Source of the DNA: Clostridiales bacterium
GTDB taxonomy: Bacteria > Bacillota > Clostridia > Christensenellales > Aristaeellaceae
Direction of reading: 5' to 3'
Assembly (NCBI GenBank): GCA_022787165.1
Contig: JALFVL010000038.1
Coordinates: 1 to 64,000, forward strand
DNA: 64,000 nt
In this document: positions 5,307 to 57,753 of the stretch, one piece after another
Position numbering within the stretch: the first letter of the stretch is position 1
Layout of the letters: every line of letters starts with the position of its first letter
Made by a program: the position numbers and the translations under genes
Notes under the pieces: model-generated
What the model saw: only the letters and a program-made list of their open reading frames with translations
Told to the model about the DNA's origin: nothing
The model's database searches: none

Positions 5307-6617
5307 CTATCCTTCGCCCTCTTCTTCCCGCTTGGATTGTCCTGTGATGTCGCGAACAGCCTGCGCGGCCTCCTTCGCCGCGCTCTGCTCCTGTGCGCTG
5401 AGCGCGGCCAGCGCGGCCGCATTGTCCGTGTCGACGACGCGATAGACCGTCGTCATGTCCACCCTGTCCCGCGCAATGTATACCGGTGTGCAGACGAGCT
5501 CGCCCAGCGTCACACGACGGATGGACGGGTCATAGCTCACGGACAGATGCGCGATCATGCCCGCCGTGTTCTCCGCAGCGCGTGCGTCCGTCAGCAGGCT
5601 GCCCAGGGAATAGCAGACCACCGTCTCATAGTCAAGCCCGTCCGCGCGCGTCACACGCAGACGCTCCGTCTCCAGCACCACATTGGGATGCGTACCCAAA
5701 ATGATGTCCGCACCGGCCTGCGCCAGCGTCACGGCCAGCTGCCGGATCTCCATGGGGGTCTCCTGCTTGTTTTTCGTTCCCCAGTGCGGCAGCACGATGA
5801 CGACATTCGCCCCTGCCGCGCGCGCCTGGCGGATATCGTCGACCATCCGCTGCGCATCGATGGAACAAACCGCCGCGCGCTCCGCCTCCCGCGTCTGCTG
5901 CTTGCCCTCGTCGCTCAGCCCATAGGTATAGGCGAGCACGGCGACCTGCACGCCGTTGACGCCAAAGAGGCTGCTTCCCTGCGCGCTGCCGTTCAGCGAG
6001 ATGCCCGCGCTCGCCATTCCACGGGCTGTCAGCTCGCCGGCCGTCAGCGCCAGGCCTTCATAGCCCTTGTCAAGCGCCCGCTCTGTCGCAAGTGACACGA
6101 GGTCCGCGCCCACGGCGCGAAGCCCATCGAGGATTTGCGGCGGCGTATTGTAGTTTCCGTAGCCCTTTTGCGCACCGGCGGTCGTCGTTTCAAGCGTGAC
6201 GATAGACAGATCCGCGCTGCTGAGCGCGTCGCCGAGTCCCGCAAAGACGGGCTCAAAGTCATAATGGTCGCTTCCCTCCATCGCGCTCTCGCGGATGGCC
6301 TTTGGCGCGTAGACGGTTCCCCCAGCCGAGAGCGTAAACGTGCTCACGGCTGGCACGGGAGATGGCGAGGGCTGCGGCACATCCGCCTGTCGATCCTCTG
6401 TGGGCGAGGTCTGTGGCGCAGCGGCTTCAACCGCCGGCGCCTCCTGCGTCCCGCTCTCCCCGATCGGGAGGGAAAAAAGGACTTCGCTGCGCTCGGTCAG
6501 CCCGTTTCCGGCGATCACGGCCAGAAACACGCCGCATAGAATCAGGACGGCAGCGGTCAGCAACAGCATCAGCAGCGTCCCCAGGGAAACGCGCCGGTGT
6601 GTCCTGCGCTTTTTCAA
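5307..6617 (-). CDS. CapA-like (PGA_cap) membrane-anchored protein with degenerate metal site
   Basis: A 436-residue protein: a basic N-terminus (KKRRTHRRVSLG), one membrane helix (LLMLLLTAAVLILCGVFLAV), a linker rich in A, P and E, and then a CapA/PGA_cap calcineurin-like fold. Recognisable parts are YDFEPVFAGLGDALSSADLS, GLRAVGADLVSLATERALDK, VVIVLPHWGTKN and DIILGTHPNVV. The canonical ligands GD and NNHxLD appear as GG and TERALD here, so several metal ligands are missing and catalysis is doubtful. The start is TTG 6617, set by GGAGGG seven bases upstream; the ORF-track start at 6827 would run through the ferredoxin terminator. It lies outside the membrane by topology and is co-transcribed with the P1 peptidase. 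Confidence 0.82.
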   Translation of the reverse strand: MKKRRTHRRVSLGTLLMLLLTAAVLILCGVFLAVIAGNGLTERSEVLFSLPIGESGTQEAPAVEAAAPQTSPTEDRQADVPQPSPSPVPAVSTFTLSAGGTVYAPKAIRESAMEGSDHYDFEPVFAGLGDALSSADLSIVTLETTTAGAQKGYGNYNTPPQILDGLRAVGADLVSLATERALDKGYEGLALTAGELTARGMASAGISLNGSAQGSSLFGVNGVQVAVLAYTYGLSDEGKQQTREAERAAVCSIDAQRMVDDIRQARAAGANVVIVLPHWGTKNKQETPMEIRQLAVTLAQAGADIILGTHPNVVLETERLRVTRADGLDYETVVCYSLGSLLTDARAAENTAGMIAHLSVSYDPSIRRVTLGELVCTPVYIARDRVDMTTVYRVVDTDNAAALAALSAQEQSAAKEAAQAVRDITGQSKREEEGEG

Positions 6618-55305: not shown

Positions 55306-55343
55306 CAAAAAAAGGGAAGCGCCGGACAGCTTTCGCGCTTCCC
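55306..55343 (-). terminator. Intrinsic terminator after rmuC
   Basis: Minus strand GGGAAGCGC pairs perfectly with GCGCTTCCC and is followed by TTTTTTTG. Confidence 0.9.
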
Positions 55344-55362: not shown

Positions 55363-56817
55363 TCAGTCCCATTCGTCCCCGTCGTCGCTCTGCGGCAGCT
55401 CCTGCTCGCCAAGCAGGCGTCTGGCCTCGCCCGCGGGCAGCTCGCCCACGTCGCTCAGCCTGCGCGCGATGCTCTCGCTGTGGCGCTGCGCGCTTTCAAT
55501 GCTCTCGCTCGCCTGACGAAGCTGCTTCTGCGTCCGCCCGAGCAGGCTGGCAAAGCTGCCGATGTCCGTGCGCACGGCCGCCAGCAGGTTGGCGATCTCC
55601 TCGGTCCGCTGCTCGATGGCCAGCGAGCGGAAGCCCATTTGCAGGCTCGAGAGCAGCGCGCTGAGCGTCGTCGGCCCGGCAACCACCATGCGGCTCTCCT
55701 GCTGGATGCGCTCGGCGAGGCCGCTGATGCGCAGCACCTCGCTGTACAGCCCCTCGCTCTGCAAAAAGAGCACGGCATAGTCCGTCGTATACGGCGGCGC
55801 GATCAGCTTTTCAGACATGCGCCGCGCGTGCATCCGCACGGCGGATTCGAGCAGGTCGCGCGCGTTATCCACCTGCTCGCGCGTGCCGTTTTGAAGCGCG
55901 GCGCGCAGCTCGCTGTATTCGCGCATCGGCAGGCTCGCGTCCAGCGGCAGATAGACCGTGTGCCCATGCCCCTGGCCCGGCATGACAACCGCGTAATCGG
56001 CCACGGCCTCGCCGCCCGGGCGCACGGCAGCATGCTGCGCATACTGCTCCGGCGCAAGCATCTGCGCCAGCAGCGCGCCCAGCTGCACCTCGCCCCAGAC
56101 GCCCAGCGGCTGCGCCCCGCCCAGCGTGCGGCTGAGCTCATCGACGCTCCCCGCGAGGGACTGCATTGCGCTCAGGCTGCTGGTCACCTGCTCCAGCCGC
56201 CGCGTCACGGCGGCGAACGACGCCTCCAGGCGCGAATCGACCGTCGCGTTCAGCTTTTCGTCGACCGTCTGGCGCATTTGCTCGAGCTGGGCGCGGTTGT
56301 CCTCGCTCATGCGCGCAAGCCCGCCCTCCAGCGTCTCGCGCATGCGCTCCATGCGCGTCTCGTTGCCGGCAAGCTTTTCGTCGAGCGTCCGGCTGACGCC
56401 GCTGAGCCGCTCCTCATAGACGCCCAGGCGCCTATCCATCGTCTGGCGGATGCGCTCGATGCGCTCCTCCTCCTGGCGGCCCGCCGCGCGCAGCTGCCCG
56501 CCCAGCGCGTCCATCTGTCCCTGCTGGGTGCGCGTCATCTCGCCCATCATGCGCATCATCGAATCGCTGACGGACTGCATCGCGCGGTCGATCTCCTGGC
56601 GCGCGGTCTCGCTGCTTTTCGCCGTCTGCTCGCCCGCCGCGGCCAGCTGCTGCGCCGTCTCCTGCGAGAGGCGCTCAAACCGTTCCTCCGACCGCCGCGA
56701 TCTGCGGCTGACAATCAGAAGCGCCGCGCCCATCAGCGCCGCCAGCAGCAGGCAAAGCGCCGCGAGTCCCAGCAGCAGCTGCTGCCCGCTCAGGGAAAGA
56801 ATGGATCCGATTTCCAT
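55363..56817 (-). CDS. rmuC: DNA recombination protein RmuC
   Basis: A 484-residue protein: an N-terminal membrane helix (LLLGLAALCLLLAALMGAAL), a long coiled coil (about 35-225) and the RmuC nuclease-like domain (SLAGSVDELSRTLGGAQPLG; GVWGEVQLGALLAQMLAPEQ; VVMPGQGHGHTVYLPLDASL; APPYTTDYAVLFLQSEGLYS; VVAGPTTLSALLSSLQMGFR). It limits inversions at repeats and is related to restriction-type endonuclease folds. In RmuC the segment usually reads KxPGxxxxxxPIDSKFP; here it is LPGQGHGHTVYLPLDASLP with serine/leucine in place of the lysine, so catalytic residues may be altered. ATG 56817 follows GGGAG. Confidence 0.9.
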   Translation of the reverse strand: MEIGSILSLSGQQLLLGLAALCLLLAALMGAALLIVSRRSRRSEERFERLSQETAQQLAAAGEQTAKSSETARQEIDRAMQSVSDSMMRMMGEMTRTQQGQMDALGGQLRAAGRQEEERIERIRQTMDRRLGVYEERLSGVSRTLDEKLAGNETRMERMRETLEGGLARMSEDNRAQLEQMRQTVDEKLNATVDSRLEASFAAVTRRLEQVTSSLSAMQSLAGSVDELSRTLGGAQPLGVWGEVQLGALLAQMLAPEQYAQHAAVRPGGEAVADYAVVMPGQGHGHTVYLPLDASLPMREYSELRAALQNGTREQVDNARDLLESAVRMHARRMSEKLIAPPYTTDYAVLFLQSEGLYSEVLRISGLAERIQQESRMVVAGPTTLSALLSSLQMGFRSLAIEQRTEEIANLLAAVRTDIGSFASLLGRTQKQLRQASESIESAQRHSESIARRLSDVGELPAGEARRLLGEQELPQSDDGDEWD

Positions 56818-56848
56818 GGTTTCACGCTCCCGTTCCGACCCGCCGCTC

Positions 56849-56877
56849 TTTTCCGCGGGGGACAAATGTGCTATAAT
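56849..56877 (+). promoter_or_regulatory. Extended -10 promoter for the small membrane protein
   Basis: TGCTATAAT is an extended -10; the -35 (TTTTCC, 17 bases upstream) is weak. Confidence 0.6.
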
Positions 56878-56919
56878 GATGCATCATGAATTCTGCCGCG
56901 CGGCAGAGGAGGTTATACG

Positions 56920-57543
56920 ATGGCCCAAAAACGCAGAAAAGACCTCATCGAAAAACGCAGGCAGCAGCGAATCACGCTGCTGTGCATCGCGGGCGGAATC
57001 GGCGCGATTCTGCTGAGCGTTCTGATCTGTCTGATCGCCTTTGACATCCGTCTGCCCGGCGGCGAGGAGGCCGCGCCGGAGCAGACGGCGATCCCCTACG
57101 ACGCGTCTCTCCCCTTTTCGCTCTCCGATCTGAGCAGCGAACAGCTCCAGCAGCTGCGCGCGCAGGGCAGCCTGCGCGTGAGCGACGGTCCGCGGGGTAT
57201 CAGCGTCGGGGACAGCCTCGACCTGCTGCTCACCCGTTACCCCTCGTCCTTCACGCAGAAGCAGGCGGACAGCGACCAGACCGGCGAGCAGTCCGACGAG
57301 GAGATCATCCTCTACTGTGCCGATTACTTCGAAAACCAGAACGGCGTGATGACCGCCCTGCCCCCGCGCGGCCTGCTGAGCGTGGACACGGGAAACATCA
57401 TTGTGACGCTGCTGGCGCCAACATCCGCCTATCCTGCCGGAACGCTGGATAACTACGGCAGTTATGAGCACGTCTACTGTCGCTATACCATCGATCCCGA
57501 CACGATGACCATCTCCTCCATCGTCCTGGGCCTGGACCGCTAG
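56920..57543 (+). CDS. Hypothetical membrane-anchored protein
   Basis: A 207-residue protein of no family that I recognise. A basic N-terminus (KRRKDLIEKRRQQR), one helix (ITLLCIAGGIGAILLSVLIC), an acidic linker and an extracellular domain with SLRVSDGPRGISVGDSLDLL, LTRYPSS, IILYCADYFENQNGVMTALP and YEHVYCRYTIDPDTMTISSI. The sequence GISVGDSLDLLLTRYPS is like the SmpA/BamE-type or PASTA-like phrase 'GDSxxxxxxxYP' seen in small surface proteins; not enough to name it. GAGGAGG precedes the ATG. It is the only plus-strand gene in its area. Confidence 0.78.
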   Translation: MAQKRRKDLIEKRRQQRITLLCIAGGIGAILLSVLICLIAFDIRLPGGEEAAPEQTAIPYDASLPFSLSDLSSEQLQQLRAQGSLRVSDGPRGISVGDSLDLLLTRYPSSFTQKQADSDQTGEQSDEEIILYCADYFENQNGVMTALPPRGLLSVDTGNIIVTLLAPTSAYPAGTLDNYGSYEHVYCRYTIDPDTMTISSIVLGLDR

Positions 57544-57562
57544 GGCACGCTTTCCTCTGTTT

Positions 57563-57591
57563 ATTATAGGGAGGAAAGCCGGGCTTGTCAA
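57563..57591 (-). promoter_or_regulatory. Perfect consensus promoter pointing antisense
   Basis: Minus strand TTGACA, exactly 17 bases, TATAAT, the strongest match in the window. It points left, antisense to the 56920-57543 gene and towards rmuC. A nine-base inverted repeat, GCTTTCCTC / GAGGAAAGC (57549-57579), encloses the -10. Confidence 0.7.
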
Positions 57592-57616: not shown

Positions 57617-57666
57617 CCCCCATACGGCGCTTGAAGCGTTCATCCGCCGTATGGGGGTTGTTTTCT
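57617..57666 (+). terminator. Intrinsic terminator after the small membrane protein
   Basis: CCCCCATACGGCG pairs perfectly with CGCCGTATGGGGG and is followed by TTGTTTT. The strong stem is 50 bases downstream of a copy of CCCCCATACG at 57602. The rest to 57753 holds the inverted repeat CTGTAAATCC/GGATTTACAG (57667-57718) and no gene. Confidence 0.85.
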
Positions 57667-57753
57667 CTGTAAATCCTTCTGCAAGGCTCCGCCCCGGTCG
57701 CAGACAACGGATTTACAGCATTTCGGAGGGCTTGCAGCCGGCATCATGCCGGT

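Follow-up and report, generated by a model that had tools for sequence, protein, structure and literature searches.

A conserved consensus promoter distal to rmuC, predicted to read antisense through a divergent membrane protein gene in a genus of Clostridia

I propose that a promoter sequence on the minus strand of a 64,000-nt stretch of Clostridiales DNA (the window), at positions 57591-57563, is probably the main promoter of rmuC. It would give the rmuC message a leader of about 740 nt that is fully antisense to the divergent gene 56920, a long 5' untranslated region of the excludon type. The arrangement belongs to a known kind, the excludon, but it is unusually well conserved. Promoters that read antisense are often dismissed as noise; here comparison of genomes shows one held in place by selection across about 20 species amid changing surroundings. 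That makes the locus a clean natural experiment on whether the order of genes is preserved for the sake of antisense coupling. The arrangement also connects RmuC, which is suspected to act in DNA processing, with an uncharacterised membrane protein that accompanies it, and this gives a lead on the functions of both. A search of the literature found no description of rmuC in such an arrangement.

A perfect consensus in an unusual position

The sigma-70/sigma-A consensus consists of TTGACA and TATAAT separated by 16-18 nt. The sequence in question, TTGACA-AGCCCGGCTTTCCTCCC-TATAAT, agrees with it at 12 of 12 positions with a spacing of 17 nt, and by sequence it is to be regarded as a housekeeping promoter of the sigma-A type. 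The preliminary description of this DNA had called it the best promoter in the window, firing antisense through gene 56920 and on to rmuC, 0.7 kb away. The sequence bears this out: there is no other 12/12 match in the window, and the coordinates and strand are as described. Matches with at most two mismatches occur 5 times in the window, as against 0.38 expected from dinucleotide shuffles. The predicted start of transcription falls some 13 nt beyond the stop codon of 56920, from where the sequence continues for about 624 nt antisense to the 56920 open reading frame before the first gene in the sense direction, rmuC, is reached (Table 1). The ATG of rmuC lies at 56817.

Table 1. Positions of the features discussed, numbered from the first nucleotide of the window
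Feature	Position	Strand	Remarks
rmuC terminator, intrinsic	55307..55343	-	GGGAAGCGC...GCGCTTCCC TTTTTTT; directly after rmuC
rmuC (RmuC family, PF02646)	55363..56817	-	Pfam RmuC E = 4e-53; first sense gene of the promoter
Predicted rmuC leader, ~740 nt	56818..57556	-	Would run antisense through the entire 56920 ORF and across its promoter
56920 promoter, extended -10 (TGCTATAATG), TATAAT	56872..56877	+	Aligned in 18 genomes; predicted leader overruns the box
Gene 56920, uncharacterised membrane-anchored protein, 207 aa	56920..57543	+	Conserved genus-wide; covered by the predicted leader
Inverted repeat GCTTTCCTC (57549-57557) / GAGGAAAGC (57571-57579)	57549..57579		Perfect 9-bp arms; 13-nt gap holding the -10
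Predicted transcription start	57555..57557	-	~7 nt past the -10, placed from the -10 position
-10 hexamer TATAAT	57563..57568	-	17-nt spacer; conserved at 21 of the 22 related loci (TATACT in one)
-35 hexamer TTGACA	57586..57591	-	Conserved at 21 of the 22 related loci (TTGACT in one)
Likely 56920 terminator, hairpin with T-rich tail	57617..57668	+	Beyond the antisense promoter

The perfect consensus is real, but it is not rare in this organism. TTGACA-N17-TATAAT is found 66 times in the genome (2.49 Mb in 42 contigs) and not once in a reversed control, and the other 28 genomes of the genus have 31-84 such sites each, with 0-2 in the reversed control. What is unusual is the position of this one site and its conservation. 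When genes around all 66 sites are called, using a codon model that had been retrained with known genes, the next feature is a sense ORF in 52 cases, and one further site falls inside a sense ORF. At nine others an antisense ORF comes next, more than 100 nt away, but a tRNA or 6S gene precedes it; three lie near contig ends, two of these with a tRNA. Only at 57591-57563 is the first downstream feature an antisense ORF within 100 nt (at 20 nt). Since nearly all of the other 65 sites lead to an ORF in the sense direction or to a gene for a tRNA or 6S RNA, perfect sites can be taken as real promoters in this genome, and the present one is out of the ordinary by its position.

Conservation of the promoter in related genomes

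The preliminary description had suggested looking for the promoter in relatives. The comparison covered the 29 genomes of a genus of Candidatus Ventricola-like Clostridia, whose named members include Candidatus Ventricola. A similarity search with the intergenic DNA yielded no matching site in the relatives, because only the hexamers are conserved; anchoring the search on the 56920 protein, which has a homologue in 25 of the 29 genomes, succeeded. The survey took in 22 loci in which the end of 56920 is complete and rmuC stands divergent to it with at least 46% identity. In 21 of these, a promoter of the form TTGACA-N17-TATAAT is directed towards rmuC, with 12 of 12 positions matching in nineteen and 11 of 12 in two. 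It is found beyond the 56920 stop, at a distance of 3-77 nt, with rmuC following after about 690-1220 nt, so that position and direction are kept along with the sequence. The excludon layout, a promoter from which the leader would run antisense to a divergent neighbour, is present in the window and 20 related genomes.

It could be supposed that the consensus is a chance match with no function. For this one can cite only the lack of an adjacent start codon, set against a site conserved in 21 of 22 loci amid diverged surroundings, when the genome-wide density predicts about 0.03 sites for all of these post-56920 stretches combined. The likelihood of this explanation is negligible.

The pattern of conservation is informative. 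The hexamer columns of the alignment hold 1.7-2 bits each, while most columns of the spacer and flanks are near zero, which indicates that selection holds the promoter itself. The surroundings have moved considerably: the 56920 proteins are about 50-75% identical to that of the window, and the gene ranges from about 594 to 732 nt (a difference of up to ~140 nt), with the promoter still at its 3' end. The neighbour downstream of 56920 varies as well (a gene for an LCP protein, tRNA-Pro, others), and still the promoter is kept. Judged by these alignments, the conserved sequence is the promoter, tied to the rmuC/56920 module. The two genes form a conserved divergent pair in the genus. Both are absent from three genomes and they are discordant in two, from which it appears that they travel together.

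The exceptions show that the wiring is not universal. G019, the one genome that has the gene pair and lacks the distal promoter, carries what looks by eye to be era, co-directional with rmuC and ending about 45 nt from the end of 56920; the hairpin between era and 56920 has a T run only in the 56920 direction. G024 keeps the promoter (L083, ~6420-6540), but a strong hairpin with a T run follows 18 nt after the -10 and could end the antisense transcript. The gap between rmuC and 56920 is about 400 nt longer there than elsewhere, and a loss or rewiring of the arrangement is possible. In the sister genus g50 the gene pair is kept without the distal promoter, with ftsY abutting; the terminator between the genes looks two-way in G077 and is directed only to 56920 in G116 and G140.

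Two further genomes lack the usual pair. The divergent rmuC-like gene of G012 is only 27% identical, and the promoter is absent. G021 has a 56920 homologue with neither an rmuC neighbour nor such a promoter, and the gene directly downstream leaves little room for one. The homologue (L084, 5734-6983) stands directly before a gene whose product, judged by eye, resembles SRAP/HMCES-type DNA-damage proteins, which again hints at a connection with DNA processing.

A distal promoter for rmuC

The model runs as follows. RNA polymerase would start at about 57556, transcribe the whole antisense strand of 56920, cross that gene's own promoter, read rmuC, and stop at 55307-55343. Hairpins similar to this terminator are found just 3' of rmuC in most main-clade genomes. 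The resulting rmuC mRNA would carry a leader of ~740 nt complementary to the entire 56920 message. In the opposite direction, the likely terminator of 56920 lies beyond the antisense promoter, so the 56920 mRNA would run back across the promoter of rmuC. The two genes would then damp each other, through transcription interference and through RNA pairing, as in an excludon. The sequence supports the promoter, its direction and conservation, the absence of a second strong promoter for rmuC, and the rmuC terminator; the start of transcription, the extent of the transcript, mutual repression, and physiological purpose are what I infer.

Over the 2.6 kb upstream of rmuC, single 10/12 matches in three genomes are the only other sites directed towards it that agree at 10 or more of 12 positions. 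The 100-bp gap between rmuC and 56920 contains the conserved extended -10 promoter of 56920. In the direction of rmuC it has only weak matches, about 7-9 of 12, and one of 10/12 with a 15-nt spacer. Several of them are the reverse of the 56920 -10 box, which in many genomes reads as a weak -10 (TATAAC) towards rmuC, and they are not conserved as a pair; a proximal promoter at the reversed box is possible. No conserved strong terminator was found in the leader, from promoter to rmuC, across the relatives. Weak terminator-like hairpins number 29 in the leaders, as against about 10 in simple shuffles. An untranslated leader of 740 nt might be vulnerable to Rho. The retention of the promoter in 21 of 22 loci, with no other strong promoter for rmuC and no conserved terminator in the leader, fits a distal rmuC promoter, and the proposal in the preliminary description that rmuC is expressed with a long antisense leader is strongly supported.

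A different view is that the promoter exists to silence or tune 56920, by antisense RNA or by collision, and that rmuC is transcribed mainly from a weak bidirectional promoter at the 56920 -10 box. The promoter is always close to the 56920 stop, so the overlap is full; the box reads TATAAC towards rmuC in many genomes; and bidirectional promoters of this sort are common in bacteria (PMC12825309). I nevertheless regard it as unlikely, if worth bearing in mind. The RNA should reach rmuC anyway, there being no conserved strong terminator on the way, and the proximal matches are poor. G021, in which 56920 stands without rmuC, has no antisense promoter, though its close downstream gene tempers the point.

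The preliminary description had also offered a regulatory RNA as the product. A strong promoter followed by a long non-coding stretch, in which a weak hairpin recurs 200-240 nt from the start of the leader, might be read as a separate antisense small RNA with a function of its own. The hairpin, however, falls in the conserved NG-MTALPP codons of 56920, which explain its recurrence, and its T tail is poor. Nothing in the window matches Rfam, and the conservation of synonymous sites in 56920 has no peak near the antisense start. These points, together with the want of a conserved terminator before rmuC, tell against the suggestion, and I consider it very improbable. A stand-alone cis-antisense RNA would have its own terminator, which only G024 appears to supply.

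Might the antisense strand encode a protein? A frame of 195-235 aa is open in the window, most high-GC relatives have long frames open on the antisense strand as well, and in a few of them a start codon with a Shine-Dalgarno-like sequence occurs near the predicted start of transcription. Against this, the antisense strands of rmuC and spoIIE are open over long stretches too, and in lower-GC relatives the frame is lost (55, 69 and 130 aa) while the promoter is kept. The open frame is an effect of high GC, and an overlapping protein is scarcely credible.

The distal promoter model can be taken further, to a genus-wide maintained excludon in which a constitutive consensus promoter couples RmuC and the membrane protein by mutual exclusion, the distal promoter being the only effective one. 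This fuller version is plausible, but I hold it tentatively.

Comparison with known systems

The textbook excludon with a long 5' UTR is mogR-lmo0673 of Listeria monocytogenes, in which a distal promoter yields transcripts whose long 5' UTR runs antisense to the neighbouring divergent gene; the distal promoter, P1, is SigB-dependent, and a proximal promoter, P2, exists (PMC7154746). As with mogR, the predicted rmuC mRNA would be both message and antisense RNA. Unlike that of mogR, the proposed distal promoter of rmuC is a perfect housekeeping consensus, present genus-wide, with a proximal promoter that is weak or absent.

A second comparison is with the noncontiguous operon menE-menC-MW1733-ytkD-MW1731 of Staphylococcus aureus (PMC7154746). 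There as here, the transcribed unit encloses the whole of an opposite-strand gene, with full-length overlap of two mRNAs (in the present case predicted). The likeness stops at the upstream side. The promoter lies between the upstream LCP gene and 56920, so the predicted mRNA would include rmuC and no gene from the upstream side; with 56920 the only gene between promoter and rmuC, the locus does not strictly qualify as a noncontiguous operon. G019, with era, and some of the sister-genus loci, with ftsY, may resemble a true noncontiguous operon more closely.

Bidirectional promoters (PMC12825309) offer a third. Being partly symmetric, the -10 box of 56920 might drive weak transcription towards rmuC, but the promoter proposed here is a separate one 0.7 kb away and does not share a -10 element.

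The inverted repeat and gene 56920

The inverted repeat around the -10 had been put forward as a possible operator. The repeat is real. It occurs in one exact copy genome-wide and is absent from the relatives, private to the species of the window. A conserved operator is therefore not supported, although the repeat may have a role confined to this species.

The product of 56920 has a basic N-terminus, what appears to be a single membrane helix, and a domain that is probably extracytoplasmic. The stretches SDGPRG, ILYC and LPPRG are strongly conserved in it. Searches of Pfam and NCBIfam gave no match, and a structure model of moderate quality (pLDDT 77) matched no fold at E <= 0.001. Several relatives (e.g. 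L087-L094) have an extra internal stretch of some 25-35 residues with a partial repeat of TGxQSDEExILYC, which suggests an internal duplication.

A few features of the DNA around the gene may be recorded. At the -35 position of its promoter (~56835-56865) there is a box, AGTAGCGC/GTGGCGC, that is conserved in the relatives and has diverged in the species of the window. The box sits inside a short inverted repeat, CTCCCG...CGGGAG; a regulator might bind here, or the box might serve as a -35 element of an unusual kind. A short hairpin, CTGCCGCGCGGCAG, is found at 56893-56906, where the 56920 mRNA is predicted to begin and immediately ahead of the Shine-Dalgarno sequence. The relatives have hairpins at this place too (GCCC...GGGC and others), varying in sequence with the pairing seemingly kept, in an alignment too gappy for the pairs to be counted. 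Finally, between 56920 and the LCP gene, at 57657-57719, lies a REP-like repeat (a hairpin CTGTAAATCC...GGATTTACAG), with partial matches at 14 other places in the genome.
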